Positions 3,218 to 60,325 of a stretch of 64,000 nucleotides of DNA are shown one piece after another. How positions within the stretch are numbered: the stretch's first letter is position 1; each line of letters starts with the position of its first letter. Location of the stretch: positions 62,001 to 126,000 of the forward strand of contig NZ_AUDS01000021.1 of assembly GCF_000425585.1 (NCBI RefSeq), written 5' to 3'. Below the pieces are notes generated by a model, which saw only the letters and a program-made list of their open reading frames with translations, did no database searches and was not told the DNA's origin. Source of the stretch: Terrimonas ferruginea DSM 30193. GTDB taxonomy: Bacteria > Bacteroidota > Bacteroidia > Chitinophagales > Chitinophagaceae. Position numbers and translations under genes: made by a program.

Positions 3218-3988
3218 ATGCTCACCGAAGCCAAAAAGCAAAAGCTTATCGAGAACATCAAACTCTACATTAAAAAATTTCTCTCCGACTCTATCACCGA
3301 CCTCGACGAAAGCGGCACCCGGATCATGATCAATCATTTCCTTACCGATGTGCTCGGCTACACGGCACTCGAGGAGGTACGCACAGAATACATGATCAAA
3401 GGCACGTATGCCGACTACATGATACAGATCAACGGTAAGCGGCATTTCCTGGTGGAAGTGAAAGCTTTTTCCCTGAACATCAATGAAAGCCACCTGCGGC
3501 AGGCAGTGAATTATGGCGCCAATGAAGGAGTGGATTGGGCATTGCTCACCAACGGCAAACAGTTCGATTTTTATAAAATCATTTTCGAAAAACCGATCCA
3601 GCACAAAAAAGTATTCACTGTCGACCTCACCGACTCTTCCAGCCTGAAAGCTGCTTACGACATTATCGAATACCTGGCTAAAGACAGCCTCCAAAAAGGC
3701 GGACTGGATGCATTATGGAATAAAGCACAGGCAATGACACCCATTTCCATTTCCAAACAACTGCTGTGCCCGGAAGTGGTGGCCATCGTACGCAAAAACG
3801 TCAATAAAGCCTATGAAATGAAATTCAATGACCAGCAGATCCAGGAGACTATTTTGAAGGTCATTGCAGAAAAGATCGACCTGAGCGGATTTAAAGTACC
3901 AAAGCTGGTTAAAAAAGAAAATACGCCGAAGAAGAACCCGCCGCCTGAAACCAATGTTATTACGTCTGTGGAGAATCCGGAAGTATAA
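3218..3988 (+). CDS. Orphan HsdR N-terminal-type nuclease domain protein
   Basis: The 256-residue protein matches the N-terminal nuclease domain of type I restriction HsdR subunits (HSDR_N_2-like). The PD-(D/E)XK signature is visible as D66 in TYADYM and E80-V-K82 in FLVEVKAF, followed by the usual LRQAVNYGANEGVDWALLTNG stretch. There is no helicase motor, methylase or specificity gene nearby. The C-terminal third is Lys/Pro-rich and probably disordered. Such stand-alone proteins are widespread; whether they act in restriction or repair is unknown. Confidence 0.75.
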   Translation: MLTEAKKQKLIENIKLYIKKFLSDSITDLDESGTRIMINHFLTDVLGYTALEEVRTEYMIKGTYADYMIQINGKRHFLVEVKAFSLNINESHLRQAVNYGANEGVDWALLTNGKQFDFYKIIFEKPIQHKKVFTVDLTDSSSLKAAYDIIEYLAKDSLQKGGLDALWNKAQAMTPISISKQLLCPEVVAIVRKNVNKAYEMKFNDQQIQETILKVIAEKIDLSGFKVPKLVKKENTPKKNPPPETNVITSVENPEV

Positions 3989-54847: not shown

Positions 54848-56122
54848 TCACCTTGTCTTCTTCAGCTTCACCGTTGCTTTATCGCCGTTCTTTTTAATCG
54901 TCACCACTTCCTGCACCGTGGCTTTGGCAGATACAGCTATATCATGGGAAACCGTATTCGCCGATGTGCCCTGAAACATGCCGTTGATATAAGTGTCTGT
55001 ATAACCCACCACTTCGGTTTGCGTGGCCTGATGGACGTATTCAAATTCCGTATAAAGCAGGTATTCTCCCGGCTGCAGGTTCACAAATTCGAAATGGCCC
55101 TCGTCATCGTAAACACCCGTCACTTTCATACAATCCGCCACATCTTTGGGCAGGGGAATGGCCCGGCCTGTTTTCCTGGATTTCTTGTTCAGCTTCAGCC
55201 ATTCTTTAAAGTAAGCAGTATAAGGAATCAGCACAACTGAAGTGCCTTTAGACGCATACTGCCGCTTGTTTATATTCAATACGGCTATGCCTTTTATAGG
55301 GGCCTGGTTATCGCGTGCAAATACCTGGCCGGTAACAACGCTGTTACCGGTCGTGATCATCTTCATGGTGGCGTTCTTGTCAAATGTGGCTGTAAAAGGG
55401 TTGTAGTCCGTTTCTTTATCGATGAGCTGAAATTGTTTTCCGCCGGCGACCAAATCTATTTTCCAGATACGGCGGTTGTCCTTGTCGATATAGTAGTCAT
55501 AGGTATCACCTGTTGCCTCTTCCAGCACACTCACCTGCCATACTTTGTGACTTCCTGTGACGGGGCTTTCGTAAGTATTGCTTCTTACTTCCACCACTTT
55601 CACCTTTTTTACATTGTTGTTATTGCCATGTTTGTAGTCATATACAGCAAAATCGGTTTTGTAACCTGACGCCAGCGGCAGCATTCCCAGCAAATAGGGA
55701 TAGGTATAACTATCGACAAAACTATTCACCACCGGCTCGGTCACCTGATGACGTTGCCTCGTTTTTTTATCGAGGTAATAACCCCTCACTTCTGTTCCAT
55801 AATGCAATGCATATTCGCGTTCTTTATTGTGCGATGCACGATAAATAGGCATCAGTGTTTTCCAATCTGATATAGACGTATCGACCCATTTATCATTAGT
55901 CCCGATAAAAGCAAGCATCGTGTGCACCACCAATTGATTATTATGCTGGCTGACATCTATGCGGAAAGAGCAGATTTCTATTTTGCCCCCATTCTGCAAA
56001 TAATAATAAGCCATTTCAGACCGGCCAGAGCGATGCCATTTTTTATCGAAGAGACTTCCCGGAGCCTGTGCAAGCAGAGATTGGGAAAAGAGGACAGTCA
56101 ATAGTAGAAGAAGATACCGCAT
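54848..56122 (-). CDS. Secreted protein with DUF3108-like and carboxypeptidase-regulatory-like parts
   Basis: 424 residues with signal peptide MRYLLLLLTVLFSQSLLAQ. The middle (GYYLDKKTRQRHQVTEPVVNSFVDSYTYPYLLGMLPLASGYKTDFAVYDYKHG ... HKVWQVSVLEEATGDTYDYYIDKDNRRIWKIDLV) resembles DUF3108-type periplasmic domains. From about residue 265 there is a carboxypeptidase-regulatory-like fold (GQVFARDNQAPIKGIAVLNI ... FVNLQPGEYLLYTEF). The role is unknown. Confidence 0.65.
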   Translation of the reverse strand: MRYLLLLLTVLFSQSLLAQAPGSLFDKKWHRSGRSEMAYYYLQNGGKIEICSFRIDVSQHNNQLVVHTMLAFIGTNDKWVDTSISDWKTLMPIYRASHNKEREYALHYGTEVRGYYLDKKTRQRHQVTEPVVNSFVDSYTYPYLLGMLPLASGYKTDFAVYDYKHGNNNNVKKVKVVEVRSNTYESPVTGSHKVWQVSVLEEATGDTYDYYIDKDNRRIWKIDLVAGGKQFQLIDKETDYNPFTATFDKNATMKMITTGNSVVTGQVFARDNQAPIKGIAVLNINKRQYASKGTSVVLIPYTAYFKEWLKLNKKSRKTGRAIPLPKDVADCMKVTGVYDDEGHFEFVNLQPGEYLLYTEFEYVHQATQTEVVGYTDTYINGMFQGTSANTVSHDIAVSAKATVQEVVTIKKNGDKATVKLKKTR

Positions 56123-56369: not shown

Positions 56370-56753
56370 ATGAAAACACTGGCCGCCACCTTTTTGCTGA
56401 CCGTTTATCTTCTCGCTTCTACAGAGGCGGGGCAACTATTGAAATTTCCGGCCATTTACCATCATTTTACAGAACACCGTAAAACAGAACCGGCTACGGG
56501 CTTTTTTTCTTTCCTGGCAATGCATTACTGGAATAATCACGCCCACCATGGCAAGCATTCTTCCAAACACCAGCATCTTCCGTTTAAGAATAGTAGACAT
56601 TTACCTGTAATGGCCACGGCCGCACCGGCCTTTCTTCCTTCGAGAATTGCCGACACACCGGAACCGGTGATTGTAGTTAATCCCCCCACCTGCCACACGG
56701 ATCTTCACGCAGGTACAATAAGGGATATTTTCCAGCCTCCGCGTCTTTCCTGA
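56370..56753 (+). CDS. His-rich exported protein, first gene of ApbE/DUF4266 cluster
   Basis: 127 residues with a membrane or signal segment (LAATFLLTVYLLASTEAGQLL) and a His-rich stretch (HYWNNHAHHGKHSSKHQH at about 52-69). The AGQLLKFPAIYHHFTEHRK segment is a recurring opening of small Bacteroidota proteins that sit near metal transport genes. It probably binds a metal in the periplasm, by inference from composition. It lies 84 bases upstream of the thioredoxin-like gene. Confidence 0.65.
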   Translation: MKTLAATFLLTVYLLASTEAGQLLKFPAIYHHFTEHRKTEPATGFFSFLAMHYWNNHAHHGKHSSKHQHLPFKNSRHLPVMATAAPAFLPSRIADTPEPVIVVNPPTCHTDLHAGTIRDIFQPPRLS

Positions 56754-56837
56754 ACTATGCTACTTCCGACTGCTTAGGCAGTAATAACTGATCAGTGATT
56801 TTATTCACCGGTCATTACCCTTATTTAATACCTCAAC

Positions 56838-57275
56838 ATGAGAACGATCATTTGTGCCTGCCTCCTCTGGGCTTTGCCGGCGTGGAGTCAGTCTGTCGCT
56901 TTCAGCGACATTATGAATAATGCCTTAAAGGAAAATAAACCAGTAGTCATCAGTTTCTCCGGATCGGACTGGTGCCTGCCGTGTATGCGTATGCACAAGG
57001 AAATTTTCGATACGGACCGGTTCAGGCAGGCCACCACCAGCTTTGGATTTTACAATGCCGATTTCCCGCGCCGTAAGAAGAATATGGTGCCAGATGCTGT
57101 ACGTGCCGTCAATGACTCGCTGGCCGCACGTTTTAATCCTGAAGGAAAATTTCCGTTTACGGTGGTAATCAGCCCCGGCGGAAAACTCATCCATTCCTGG
57201 GAAGGATTTCCTGATTCAGGCATTGAGTCATTTTATACAACACTTCAAACCATCCGGAATGATTACGGAAAATGA
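56838..57275 (+). CDS. Periplasmic thioredoxin-like protein with WCLPC motif
   Basis: 145 residues. A signal peptide (MRTIICACLLWALPAWSQ) is followed by a thioredoxin fold: PVVISFSGSDWCLPCMRMHKEIF with W45-C-L-P-C49, and a late FPFTVVISPGG strand with the cis-proline. It likely keeps cysteines reduced in the periplasm, such as those of the DUF4266 tail. The ApbE start overlaps its 3' end by 17 bases. Confidence 0.88.
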   Translation: MRTIICACLLWALPAWSQSVAFSDIMNNALKENKPVVISFSGSDWCLPCMRMHKEIFDTDRFRQATTSFGFYNADFPRRKKNMVPDAVRAVNDSLAARFNPEGKFPFTVVISPGGKLIHSWEGFPDSGIESFYTTLQTIRNDYGK

Positions 57276-58209
57276 CCTGCATGTAAGCGCCGAATATAAA
57301 AAGACGGCAAGATTGATGGGCAATCAATTTGAGATTACGGTTGTGTCCGGAGAAAAGGAATATGCCATGCAGCAAATAGCAACGGCGATTGCGGAAATAC
57401 AAAGAATAGAAAGCCTTTTGTCCACGTTCCGCGAAGACAGCCAGACCAATGCGATCAACAGGATGGCCGGCGTTGCACCCGTTAAAGTTGACCGTGAAGT
57501 GTTTGAACTGATCAGTCGCGCGCAACGGATCTCAGGTCTTACGCAGGGAGCTTTTGACCTGAGTTACGGGTCGGTAGACAAACGGCTCTGGAATTTCGAC
57601 ACGCACATGACCAGTCTTCCGGATAAGGAAACAGCCCTGGCCAGGGTAAAGCTGATTAACTACCGCAACATTGAACTCGATGAGGCATCCTGCTCCGTAT
57701 TCCTGCGGGAGAAAGGCATGCGGATAGGATTTGGTGGCATTGGGAAAGGCTATGCAGCCGATAAAGCGCGGCAGTTATTGATTGCGCAGGGCGTTGCTTC
57801 CGGCATCGTCAATGCCTCCGGCGACCTCACTGCCTGGGGCACGCAGGCAAACGGAGAGTCCTGGACGGTAGGCATCGCCCATCCCGACCATGCCGCCACC
57901 CCATTTTCCTACCTGAAAGTTTCCGGCATGGCCATGGCCACATCAGGCAACTATGAAAAGTTCGTCCTCATCAATGGCCGGAAATATTCCCACACCATCA
58001 ATCCGCGCACCGGCCTGCCCGTCACCGGCATCAAGAGCGTAACGGTATTCAGCCCTTATGCAGAGTTGTCCGACGCAATGGCCACCCCTTTGTCGATCAT
58101 GGGCGTAAGGGCCTCCATCGAATTGGTGAACCAGGTGCCCGAACTAGCTTGTATTCTTATCGACGACGATAACCATCTCTATTCATCCAACAACATTCAC
58201 CTGACATGA
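57259..58209 (+). CDS. apbE: ApbE, FAD:protein FMN transferase
   Basis: 316 residues from the ATG at 57259; an earlier in-frame ATG at 57223 is possible. Family motifs: RLMGNQFEITVV, FGGIGKGYAADKA, NASGDLTAWG and GNYEKFVLINGRKYSHTINPRTGLPV, and AELSDAMATPLSIMG. ApbE transfers FMN from FAD to Ser or Thr of target proteins. Unlike most members I see no signal peptide or lipobox, so it may act in the cytoplasm. The next gene overlaps it by four bases. Confidence 0.93.
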   Translation: MITENDLHVSAEYKKTARLMGNQFEITVVSGEKEYAMQQIATAIAEIQRIESLLSTFREDSQTNAINRMAGVAPVKVDREVFELISRAQRISGLTQGAFDLSYGSVDKRLWNFDTHMTSLPDKETALARVKLINYRNIELDEASCSVFLREKGMRIGFGGIGKGYAADKARQLLIAQGVASGIVNASGDLTAWGTQANGESWTVGIAHPDHAATPFSYLKVSGMAMATSGNYEKFVLINGRKYSHTINPRTGLPVTGIKSVTVFSPYAELSDAMATPLSIMGVRASIELVNQVPELACILIDDDNHLYSSNNIHLT

Positions 58210-58433
58210 AAACACACCTTAACAAGTACGTCCTGTTTGTCGCAGGCTCGCTCCTGCTCACGCTGGCCGCCTGTACAACCGTAAAAGAGTACCAAAAAAA
58301 CAAACTCAACGACGCCGAAATGTCACTCGGCAACCGGAAAGCAGAAAAGACCGAACTCAATTTCCAGTCGTACCGCGAAGGTTCTTCGGGAGCCAACGGC
58401 GGTAAGAACGGCGGAGGCTGTGGCTGTAATTAA
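58206..58433 (+). CDS. DUF4266 lipoprotein with Gly/Cys tail
   Basis: 75 residues. KYVLFVAGSLLLTLAAC ends in lipobox C23. The mature part is 52 residues and has SYREGSSGANGG at 55-66 and ends in GGGCGCN (69-75). The Y-REG(S/A)-SG and terminal GGGCGCN blocks define DUF4266 as I know it. The tail could bind a metal or carry a modification; the SSGA stretch looks like the known ApbE target pattern (D-x-x-S/T-G-A-T), but the acceptor Thr/Ser position is Asn here. The gene sits between ApbE and DUF3570 genes. Confidence 0.85.
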   Translation: MKTHLNKYVLFVAGSLLLTLAACTTVKEYQKNKLNDAEMSLGNRKAEKTELNFQSYREGSSGANGGKNGGGCGCN

Positions 58434-58458
58434 GACGATCATTTTAAAACTACTCTAG

Positions 58459-59652
58459 ATGAAACGTATTTTCTTAAGTGCTATAGCCCTGATGAGCCTG
58501 CTGAACCTGCGGGCGCAATCGACCGGCGACAGCACCGGATTCAAATCACGTAAACTTAAAATAGACGAGATCAACCTGGTGTCCAGTTATTATAGCCAGA
58601 GTGGTGAACATGCGGCCGTAACTGGTGGCATCGGCTCACAAAAACTCAGCGACATTGCCAACACACTGGACATAAAACTCATCAGTTATGACAAGAAGCT
58701 CCGCAAGCATACATTTGATGCGGAAGTTGGCATCGACCATTATACCTCCGCCTCTTCGGACCGCATCGATCTGAAAGCAAATTCCTCCGCCTCGCATTCG
58801 GATACGCGAATTTATCCTTCGCTCAACTGGACCATGGAAAACAACCGGAAAGGAAACGGAATCGGTGCAGGCCTTTCCTACTCGAGTGAATTCGATTATC
58901 AATCCCTGGGCGTTTCGGGCAGCTTTTCCAAAAAGACCCACGACCGCAATGGTGAATTTAATATACGCTTGCAGGCATTGTTTGACCAGGTATCCGACAT
59001 CAAACCTGTAGAATTGCGTACCGGAGGCAACAGCGGGGAGGACGAAAGTTATCCCAAACAAAACCGTCGTACACTGGCCGCTGCGCTCAGTTGGTCGCAG
59101 ATCGTAAATGAGCGGCTGCAGGTGGCATTGATGGCGGATGTGGTGCAGCAATCCGGTTTTCTCAGCCTGCCTTTTTACCGTGTATATTTTAACGACGCCT
59201 CCGTACACCAGGAGTATTTACCGGACACCCGGTTTAAATTGCCGGTGGGAATAAGAGCCAGTTATTTTATGGGCGACAAGGTGATCCTGCGTGGTTATTA
59301 TCGTTACTACGCCGACAGTTGGGGCGTGCGTTCGCATACCGCCAACCTGGAAGTACCGGTGAAGCTGAATCCTTTCGTATCAGTTGCGCCCTTCTATCGC
59401 TTCTATTCGCAGACAGGAACACGTTATTTCGCTCCCTACGGCGTTCATACTGCTGCTAATGACTATTACACGAGCAACTACGATCTGTCAACCTTTCAAA
59501 GTCATTTTGTGGGTGCTGGTATCCGCTGGACGCCGCTTAAAGGCATTGCAGGCATTCAGAAATTGTCGATGGCCGAAATTCGTTACGGGCATTACACAAA
59601 AAATATTGCCATGAATGCAAACATCGTGACGCTGAATCTCCGTTTTCGCTGA
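58459..59652 (+). CDS. DUF3570 outer-membrane protein
   Basis: 397 residues with signal peptide MKRIFLSAIALMSLLNLRAQ. It contains DEINLVSSYYSQSGEHAAVTGGIGSQKLSDIANTLDIKL and the later YGVHTAANDYYTSNYDLSTFQSHFVGAGIRWTPLKG, which define DUF3570. About 18 amphipathic strands point to an outer-membrane barrel, and it ends in a terminal strand (NIVTLNLRFR). It is 25 bases after the DUF4266 gene and most likely works with it. Confidence 0.9.
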   Translation: MKRIFLSAIALMSLLNLRAQSTGDSTGFKSRKLKIDEINLVSSYYSQSGEHAAVTGGIGSQKLSDIANTLDIKLISYDKKLRKHTFDAEVGIDHYTSASSDRIDLKANSSASHSDTRIYPSLNWTMENNRKGNGIGAGLSYSSEFDYQSLGVSGSFSKKTHDRNGEFNIRLQALFDQVSDIKPVELRTGGNSGEDESYPKQNRRTLAAALSWSQIVNERLQVALMADVVQQSGFLSLPFYRVYFNDASVHQEYLPDTRFKLPVGIRASYFMGDKVILRGYYRYYADSWGVRSHTANLEVPVKLNPFVSVAPFYRFYSQTGTRYFAPYGVHTAANDYYTSNYDLSTFQSHFVGAGIRWTPLKGIAGIQKLSMAEIRYGHYTKNIAMNANIVTLNLRFR

Positions 59653-59670: not shown

Positions 59671-59701
59671 AAAATCCCCGGCTGCAAAAGCCGGGGATTT
59701 T
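59671..59701. terminator. Bidirectional terminator closing the ApbE cluster
   Basis: AAAATCCCCGGC / GCCGGGGATTTT, 12 pairs, loop TGCAAAA. It stops the ApbE/DUF3570 set and the converging barrel gene. Confidence 0.92.
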
Positions 59702-59726: not shown

Positions 59727-60299
59727 TTATTTTCCGCCCAGGGCGAAGAATATGCCTACCTGGATCACGCTGTTTTTGAAATCGGGATCGAAATCGGCAT
59801 TGGAGTCGAAGTCGCCTACTTTAGACAGACCCGCCATATAACGGGCACCAATACCAAAACCACCGGCAGACTGGAAACCAAGACCGGCACCAACAGAGAG
59901 GTCAAGATTTTTAGCGAAACTGCGGAAGGTCTGGTCAGGGATGTCTTCAGAAATTTTGAAGCCCACCTGCGGGCCTGCTTCTACATAAAATCCACCGGGT
60001 GAACGGAATTTCACCATCACCGGTACCGTAACATAGGTAAGGCGGAAGCTGGTATCAGCATCTTTGAGTTTCGCACCGGCTGTAGAAACCAGGGCTTCCG
60101 GTTGCAGAGAAATCGCACCCAGCCGGAAATTCATAAAACCGCCGGCATGAAAGCCAACCAGCGCCTGCTTATCCAGATTATCAAAACGGCCGCCGCTGAA
60201 ATTGGTAATGTTCAAACCAGCTTTAAGGCCGCCCGTGATCTGCGCAGAAGCTGCTTGAGAAAGGGCAACAATCAACGCAACAAATAAGGTTTTTTTCAT
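59727..60299 (-). CDS. Outer-membrane beta-barrel (porin family) protein
   Basis: 190 residues from the ATG complement at 60297-60299. Signal peptide MKKTLFVALIVALSQAASAQ. TGGLKAGLNITNFSGG, GFHAGGFMNFRLGAISLQPEALVS, GFYVEAGPQVGFKIS and GIGARYMAGLSKVG are the strands of the OMP_b-brl_2 type. A -7-like box CAAAAATA (60318-60325) lies upstream on the same strand. Confidence 0.9.
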   Translation of the reverse strand: MKKTLFVALIVALSQAASAQITGGLKAGLNITNFSGGRFDNLDKQALVGFHAGGFMNFRLGAISLQPEALVSTAGAKLKDADTSFRLTYVTVPVMVKFRSPGGFYVEAGPQVGFKISEDIPDQTFRSFAKNLDLSVGAGLGFQSAGGFGIGARYMAGLSKVGDFDSNADFDPDFKNSVIQVGIFFALGGK

Positions 60300-60317
60300 A
60301 AAAAACAATTTAGTTTG

Positions 60318-60325
60318 CAAAAATA
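60318..60325 (-). promoter_or_regulatory. -7 box of the barrel gene
   Basis: TATTTTTG on the minus strand fits TAnnTTTG, 19 bases before the start codon. No clear -33 box was found. Confidence 0.45.

Follow-up and report, generated by a model that had tools for sequence, protein, structure and literature searches.

Within a 64,000-nucleotide stretch of the Terrimonas ferruginea DSM 30193 genome (referred to here as the window), five co-directional open reading frames (ORFs) on the plus strand, all confirmed present, occupy positions 56370-59652 and encode a small leader protein, a thioredoxin-like protein, an ApbE flavin transferase, a DUF4266 lipoprotein and a DUF3570 protein. We read this locus as a metal-responsive, flavin-based electron-transfer operon of the cell envelope, i.e. 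a flavin core with a metal-linked role, and put the probability of this reading at about 0.6. The core almost certainly belongs to a known type of flavinylation cluster, composed of DUF3570, DUF4266, thioredoxin and ApbE. What seems new here is the position of both flavin sites in one predicted extracellular loop, an ApbE without a signal peptide and a leader family with a link to metal genes. The gene set, its conserved sites, the lack of a recognisable ApbE signal and the association of the leader family with pumps were all read from sequence.

The leader gene (56370..56753, plus strand like all features described below; 127 amino acids (aa), no significant Pfam family) is followed by the thioredoxin-like gene (56838..57275, 145 aa; PF13899, Thioredoxin_7, 32.5 bits at a cut-off of 27), whose product carries WCLPC at residues 45-49, has a hydrophobic N-terminus resembling a signal peptide and is annotated as periplasmic. 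ApbE, the FAD:protein FMN transferase (flavin adenine dinucleotide, FAD; flavin mononucleotide, FMN; PF02424, 265 bits, 1e-78), spans 57259..58209 with 316 aa from its ATG, and its longest frame starts at TTG 57223. The DUF4266 gene (58206..58433; PF14086, 66.1 bits, 5e-18) encodes a 75-aa lipoprotein precursor with the lipobox LAAC, cysteines at 23, 72 and 74, and the C-terminus GGGCGCN (C72-G-C74). The last gene (58459..59652; PF12094, 96.8 bits) encodes the 397-aa DUF3570 protein, a predicted 16-strand outer-membrane barrel. The gaps between the genes measure +84, -17, -4 and +25 bases in order, so that the overlaps of 17 and 4 bases described in an earlier note on this DNA are confirmed. 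The strong terminator claimed there is likewise present as an intrinsic terminator closing the operon (59671..59701, 13-bp stem, -23.9 kcal/mol, z -6.1), which a simple scan missed and folding energy assessed by z-score picked up.

The earlier note took this set of genes for an undescribed exported redox system. Its core has been published: Meheust et al. (2021, eLife 10:e66878, PMC8238504) described "DsbD systems" in which ApbE and DUF3570 occur with a thioredoxin-like protein (PF13899) and a DUF4266 protein whose C-terminus carries CXC. They counted 316 clusters of these four families without a local DsbD, which is thus optional. In the window all four families score over their Pfam cut-offs within one cluster, and the C72-G-C74 tail of DUF4266 provides the CXC. 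Within the open-licence PubMed Central literature, DUF4266, DUF3570 and PF12094 were found named only in PMC8238504, with no later work on the system among the papers listed, and a 2025 review of ApbE (PMC12052999) does not mention DUF3570.

The proposal of an envelope redox system in which DUF4266, DUF3570 and ApbE co-occur is supported, and the grouping goes beyond chance. A survey of 296 genomes of the phylum gave 83 with DUF4266, every one of which is also among the 86 with DUF3570 (lists compared by eye); only G213, G225 and G276 have DUF3570 without DUF4266. As 46 of the 83 DUF4266 genomes belong to one family (f17), the number of independent events is smaller than the count. In the family sample, 60 of 195 genomes have DUF4266, and it is absent from the sole same-genus genome listed (G298). 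For comparison of gene neighbourhoods we used 39 cluster stretches hand-picked from the DUF4266 matches of the phylum (L069, adjoining another stretch, was not used) and 80 further loci, the best matches, among the candidates listed, to an alignment with the window DUF3570 as its lead sequence, all of which carry Bacteroidota names. Counts over the resulting 118 clusters are therefore biased towards near relatives of the window. Two duplicates (L097 and L132) were excluded from the cluster-order, signal, hairpin, leader and metal-gene counts and are still included in the DUF3570 and DUF4266 motif counts (122 and 119 proteins). The order thioredoxin-ApbE-DUF4266-DUF3570 is kept in 102 of the 118 distinct clusters. 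Three loci (L133, L139 and L147) carry thioredoxin, DUF4266 and DUF3570 with intact flavin sites and no ApbE within the stretch, which may be elsewhere in the genome, and two others (L146 and L152) contain a tandem pair of DUF3570 genes.

The flavin acceptor is most readily found in DUF3570. According to the review PMC12052999, ApbE recognises the motif D-x-x-[S/T]-G-A-[S/T] and modifies its last residue, and the DUF3570 of Chlorobium luteolum was flavinylated at two sites on co-expression with ApbE (PMC8238504). The window DUF3570 harbours two corresponding sites, D93-H-Y-T-S-A-S99 (58735..58755), of which D93, S97, A98 and S99 are invariant in 56 of 56 alignment rows, and S109-S-A-S112 (58783..58794), of which A111 and S112 are invariant in all 56. 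Both motifs, TSAS and SSAS, retain the alanine and the acceptor serine, with serine in place of glycine as second letter. Most relatives seen share this form: of 122 DUF3570 proteins, 118 keep the relaxed motif [ST][GS]A[ST] at site 1 and 117 keep it at site 2, compared with only 2 and 15 for the strict [S/T]GA[S/T], and the exceptions at site 1 read ASAS (three) and TVPA (one). In L042, L043 and L048, all of genus g24, ASAS and SSPS/STPS stand at the flavin sites, with the acceptor serine kept and the remainder altered. The source genome (4.69 Mb, 30 contigs) contains exactly one ApbE, one DUF4266, one DUF3570 and one DsbD_TM protein, and a search of it gave no FMN_bind, DUF2271 or NQR2_RnfD_RnfE; DUF3570 is thus the only ApbE substrate of a known type found in this genome. 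The earlier note saw no known ApbE target nearby, and here it has to be corrected, since the last gene of its own list belongs to the experimentally established acceptor family (PMC8238504). Judged from sequence, S99 and S112 of the window DUF3570 probably carry FMN.

The window ApbE has likely counterparts of the reported catalytic Ser, His and Asp in TSG, SHTINPRTG and SDAMAT (by spacing, PMC12052999). Signal peptides were judged by a crude hydropathy rule only. By this rule no hydrophobic stretch precedes the catalytic domain of the window ApbE, even when translation is taken from the earliest ATG, GTG or TTG start. The same holds for 94 of 111 cluster ApbEs (those below 290 aa and the two duplicates excluded). 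In the same clusters a signal-like stretch is seen in 119 of 120 DUF3570, 113 of 115 thioredoxin-like and 113 of 117 DUF4266 proteins. Response regulators, expected to be signal-free, score in 8 of 36 cases, which indicates that the rule errs towards calling signals. A quickly built ApbE tree groups 91 signal-less rows on the same side of a branch whose support is 92 in the Shimodaira-Hasegawa-like approximate likelihood ratio test (not starred), and the signal label needs 3 changes compared with 16.1 for shuffles. The rows closest to the window ApbE on this tree include Chitinophagaceae. A programmed frameshift between thioredoxin and ApbE that would export ApbE was considered and rejected, as the frame relation varies over 104 clusters: the ApbE frame is open into the thioredoxin gene in +1 in 62 and in +2 in 21, and is not open into it in 21.

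With a signal-less ApbE and a signal-bearing DUF3570, the simplest reading is that FMN is attached before Sec export, and judged from the sequences attachment in the cytosol appears somewhat favoured. Cytosolic ApbEs are known for soluble or fused fumarate reductases (PMC12052999). For Meheust et al. a signal in a single one of the four target genes of a cluster was enough (PMC8238504), so that their clusters could include signal-less ApbEs; a discussion of signal-less ApbE in DsbD systems was not seen in the part of PMC8238504 used here. A signal-less ApbE beside a signal-bearing barrel leaves two options: export through Sec of a chain that already carries flavin, or release of the enzyme from the cell along an unknown route.

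To place the flavin sites in space, we built an AlphaFold2 model of the window DUF3570 from 56 relatives. The model (predicted local distance difference test (pLDDT) 81.9, predicted template modelling score 0.77) has 16 long strands, and the 50 PDB matches listed in each of two structure searches (Foldseek and VIA-align) are all outer-membrane barrels. Foldseek aligned the model with porins, AlgE and FadL at template modelling scores of about 0.3-0.46. VIA-align gave a BamA model (Z 21.3, root mean square deviation (rmsd) 4.0, 282 aligned) and CymA (Z 18.2, rmsd 4.1, 272 aligned). Compared by sequence with the PDB, DUF3570 has no relative up to E 1. The model speaks for the outer-membrane location suggested in the earlier note. 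Here the stretch from strand three to strand four, residues 97-113, holds both flavin sites. We inferred inside and outside from strand order and loop lengths alone, with both termini placed in the periplasm as is usual. The loops assigned to the outside total 105 residues compared with 40 inside, as expected for an outer-membrane barrel. Both flavin sites are consequently predicted to share one extracellular loop, which may be exposed or folded into the lumen.

The leader protein belongs to a family with no significant match in Pfam, NCBIfam or the PDB sequences. It is found in 101 of the 195 genomes of the family sample and as a single copy in the source genome. Its invariant features are H32, H36, H52-Y53 and L70-P-F, and the C-terminal sequence of the window copy is FQPPRLS. 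All 48 members have the three histidines H32, H36 and H52, and 44 of 48 end with [WF]xPP[KR] within the last 15 residues following a variable stretch. Of the 48 leaders, 46 have PP in the last 15 residues, and the two exceptions come from short ORFs of 80 and 120 aa; the corresponding figures are 3 of 694 for neighbours with a label and 5 of 304 for ORFs without one. The description of the leader as a His-rich protein suits the window copy and fails as a rule for the family, in which three positions that are H, K and H here are Asp in 42, 45 and 44 of the 48 members (window counted). A structure model (mean pLDDT 67) predicts helices at 26-39 and 45-54.

These features recall the CutF-like proteins of Ozturk et al. 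(2023, mBio, PMC9973294), which were selected as being below 150 aa, with a signal, a Cys/His metal motif, a PP beside a positive charge among the final 15 residues, and a downstream gene on the same strand within 1000 nt. The window leader has 127 aa, the FQPPRLS end and 84 nt to the thioredoxin gene on the same strand, and hydropathy gives a hydrophobic N-terminus for the window leader and for every one of the 26 leaders examined at DUF3570 loci. In the same study Bacteroidota make up 19% of the CutF-like list (40% when normalised), and genes of the resistance-nodulation-division (RND) family are frequent neighbours. Because of this share and these neighbours, the leader family may already be among the clusters of Ozturk et al. 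DUF2946, the family of CutF itself, gave no match among the Pfam hits up to E 1 for 19 leader-family members. By analogy with CutF, we tentatively suggest that the leader acts as a translational metal sensor; the proline-rich end of CutF was not a strong stalling sequence by itself in the authors' test (PMC9973294).

A CutF-type mechanism directs attention to the 84-nt intergenic stretch after the leader (56754..56837). In the window, two stems are found here, one of them a hairpin of 5 bp (ACTGC/GCAGT) at offset 15 from the stop codon. In 14 of the 26 leader genes from DUF3570 loci, a hairpin of 7 or more Watson-Crick pairs starts at offset 5-22 past the stop codon, compared with 1.1 expected from shuffled sequences; all 14 are from Weeksellaceae. 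The arms vary in sequence between species with the pairing kept, which, given that the loci are related, is support and not proof. As controls, raised counts were obtained after DUF3570 (18 of 120 compared with 5.0 expected, as terminators would produce) and after VIT1 (7 of 35 compared with 1.9). Counts near expectation followed thioredoxin (1/116), ApbE (4/115), DUF4266 (3/117), RND pump (0/19), pump adaptor (1/22), response regulator (1/36) and histidine kinase (1/21). The position-specific count replaces general folding strength after the leader stop, which differed little from controls (mean z -1.91 for 26 leaders compared with -1.62 for DUF3570 and -1.77 for the pump adaptor) and was not used. 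In L191, L195, L196 and L202 a common element, GTACAAG(A/T)GTGCGACGCAA, stands between leader and pump; it is absent from the window at up to 2 mismatches.

The link to metals comes from the company that the leader and the clusters keep. We hand-picked 20 leader-pump loci, mostly high-scoring, from the 101 genomes with a leader, none of them among the 60 DUF4266 genomes of the family sample. In all 20 of these genomes without the cluster, the leader gene directly precedes an RND pump of 1439-1469 residues and its adaptor, and all 20 pumps contain DFGxx[IV]DGAV, which we take to be typical of divalent-cation (CzcA-like) pumps. The same motif is found in 7 of 16 pump pieces above 500 aa from DUF3570 loci, many of them cut by the end of the stretch, and the pump beside the L035 DUF3570 cluster scores as CusA/CzcA family, just over the NCBIfam cut-off (706 versus 701 bits). 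Within the clusters, the leader stands directly before thioredoxin in 21 of 105 with room upstream, four of which, including the window, are non-Weeksellaceae. In three further loci (L061, L062 and L067) it is found downstream of DUF3570 instead, flanked by a sensor kinase and an RND pump. Over the 118 clusters the neighbours counted anywhere in the stretch are VIT1 (33), RND (22), P-type ATPase (15, closest to Ca-type models), Rieske (14) and cytochrome b561 (10). At least one of VIT1, RND pump and P-type ATPase occurs in 51 of 118 clusters, and the leader or any sought metal gene in 56 of 118 stretches. The metal-linked role suggested earlier gains support from these neighbours and from the leader-pump association, and a metal-related role of the operon appears reasonably probable from its sequence context.

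Separately, a small Rieske [2Fe-2S] protein is encoded directly upstream of thioredoxin in 11 clusters (L042, L044, L047, L053, L054, L062, L063, L068, L142, L150 and L153; L044 confirmed as PF00355), never with a leader at that place. In L084 a Haem_bd (PF14376) protein (3257-3724) lies between pump adaptor and leader, and ORFs of similar size are present there in L085 and L087. The operon of the window is flanked on the minus strand by a DUF3108 protein (54848-56122) and a small outer-membrane beta-barrel protein (59727-60320).

Taken together, these data suggest the following mechanism. ApbE would take FMN from FAD and attach it to DUF3570 at S99 and S112, a step that probably happens in the cytosol, ahead of Sec export. 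The DUF3570 chain would then form a barrel in the outer membrane, whose two flavins share a single loop facing outwards by prediction. From the cytosol, electrons would pass via the single DsbD_TM protein of the genome to the periplasmic WCLPC thioredoxin, from there to the DUF4266 lipoprotein, a probable thiol relay by way of its CGC tail, and onward to the DUF3570 flavins. That the WCLPC thioredoxin could feed the CXC of DUF4266 had been proposed from the sequence and stands as a possibility; the path as a whole, with its direction assumed, we consider slightly favoured. For the final acceptor we infer an extracellular or luminal one, most likely a transition-metal ion. The leader would be a small exported metal sensor of the CutF type that tunes translation of the operon to envelope metal. 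A bolder version, a surface flavin wire in which a nascent-chain metal sensor switches on the operon and a barrel flavinylated by a cytosolic ApbE before Sec, with electrons supplied by DsbD, thioredoxin and the CXC lipoprotein, changes the redox state of surface metal through the two flavins of an outward loop, is improbable in its full form. To our knowledge, both flavin attachment before export and a flavin-bearing surface barrel would be new. A barrel with covalent flavin would be a cytochrome-free electron route across the outer membrane, and the leader family with its regular place before CzcA-like pumps offers a testable handle on which metal is involved and whether control is translational or otherwise.

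Several observations weigh against this picture. The second motif letter is serine instead of glycine at both sites, which counts against full occupancy unless the cognate ApbE accepts serine; in one other substrate a G-to-A change left about half of the flavinylation (PMC12052999). Site 2 lacks the Asp, although replacement of Asp had minor effects in that substrate. The flavin-site loop is modelled with low confidence (pLDDT about 55 for residues 101-110). A hydrophobic stretch precedes the domain in 17 of 111 ApbEs, and in L036 (4503-5933) thioredoxin and ApbE form a single fused ORF with a signal-like hydrophobic N-terminus. The sole DsbD_TM protein found in the source genome is encoded on another contig (C13) and not beside the cluster. 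The leader precedes thioredoxin in only the 21 of 105 clusters mentioned above, 17 of them from Weeksellaceae, the hairpin of the window with its 5 pairs is below the 7-pair threshold, and 62 of 118 clusters have neither the leader nor any sought metal gene in their stretch, although 20 of the 118 stretches are shorter than 12 kb.

Alternative explanations concern both the flavin core and its purpose. The earlier note favoured DUF4266 as the ApbE substrate, with FMN on the serine of SSGAN and the CGC reduced by thioredoxin. Its gene does follow apbE directly with a 4-base overlap and SSGA resembles the motif, yet the acceptor, i.e. the last motif residue, is Asn, a strict [ST]GA[ST] is present in just 1 of 119 DUF4266 proteins (L118) compared with the GGCxC tail in all 119, the window leader, thioredoxin and DUF4266 contain no [ST][GS]A[ST], and the experimentally established acceptor family is DUF3570 (PMC8238504). 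We regard this alternative as extremely improbable. The peptide modification also considered in the earlier note finds no support, as none of the five genes is a recognised maturase and no maturation enzyme for a reading of GGGCGCN as a ribosomally synthesised and post-translationally modified peptide was seen among them. DsbD, thioredoxin and CXC parts are typical of envelope thiol repair. It is therefore conceivable that the system reduces oxidised envelope proteins (methionine sulfoxide or disulfides) with no electron delivery to metal, and the Rieske, cytochrome b561 and haem-binding genes near relatives would then be general redox wiring. Against this, no MsrA/B or peroxiredoxin is among the 13 annotated neighbour proteins, which are a small part of the neighbours, and a flavinylated barrel and the metal genes would be left unexplained, which makes repair quite unlikely.

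The same flavin system might serve iron assimilation or another reduction outside metal detoxification, with the leader and pump neighbours being a lineage-specific co-location. VIT1 is the commonest counted neighbour family (33/118), Meheust et al., who called the function of DsbD systems uncertain, suggested iron assimilation from 25 VIT1 clusters (PMC8238504), and the leader-headed clusters come mostly from Weeksellaceae (17/21). The leader nevertheless heads the operon in four genomes outside this family, the window included, and in all 20 loci sampled elsewhere its family stands before CzcA-like pump genes, so that we hold this alternative to be unlikely without dismissing it. For the leader itself, an ordinary metal-binding periplasmic protein, i.e. 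a buffer or chaperone with no control of translation, is a rather doubtful alternative to the sensor. It would account for three invariant histidines lying on two predicted helices, 26-39 and 45-54, and for pump genes that are preceded by a hairpin in only 1 of 22 leader-pump loci; in addition CzcI, which is CutF-like and precedes czcCBA, is said to be without the proline motif (PMC9973294). The [WF]xPP[KR] end kept in 44 of 48 members despite the variable stretch before it, and the hairpin that directly follows the stop codon in 14 of the 26 DUF3570-locus leaders, argue for the sensor.

Among known systems, the CutF-like sensors share with the leader family the size below 150 aa, the N-terminal signal, the His motif, the C-terminal PP with a positive charge and the nearby gene on the same strand. 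They differ in that the leader family lacks DUF2946 and its conserved ligands are His only; the two His-only CutF-like clusters (14 and 17) precede HupE/UreJ genes and not RND or thioredoxin genes (PMC9973294). A downstream flavinylation operon is not named in the part of that paper drawn on here, and the window hairpin is short. CzcI of Cupriavidus, a small protein encoded before CzcCBA and suggested to be a metal-sensing regulator (PMC9973294), resembles the leader family in size and in its place before a CzcA-like pump; the leader family has the proline motif that CzcI is said to lack and is matched by no NCBIfam model. The cytosolic ApbE of Klebsiella (PMC12052999) is likewise without a signal peptide, but its substrate is a soluble fumarate reductase, whereas in the window a predicted outer-membrane barrel with a signal-like N-terminus would be the substrate. 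With the system of Meheust et al. the window shares ApbE, DUF3570, the PF13899 thioredoxin-like protein and DUF4266 with its C-terminal CXC. The main text of PMC8238504 has no mention of Rieske, RND, copper or histidine, and its single mention of the outer membrane refers to siderophore transporters. Compared with that system, the window differs by its leader gene, the signal-less ApbE, the serine in place of glycine in the flavin motif and the predicted barrel topology.

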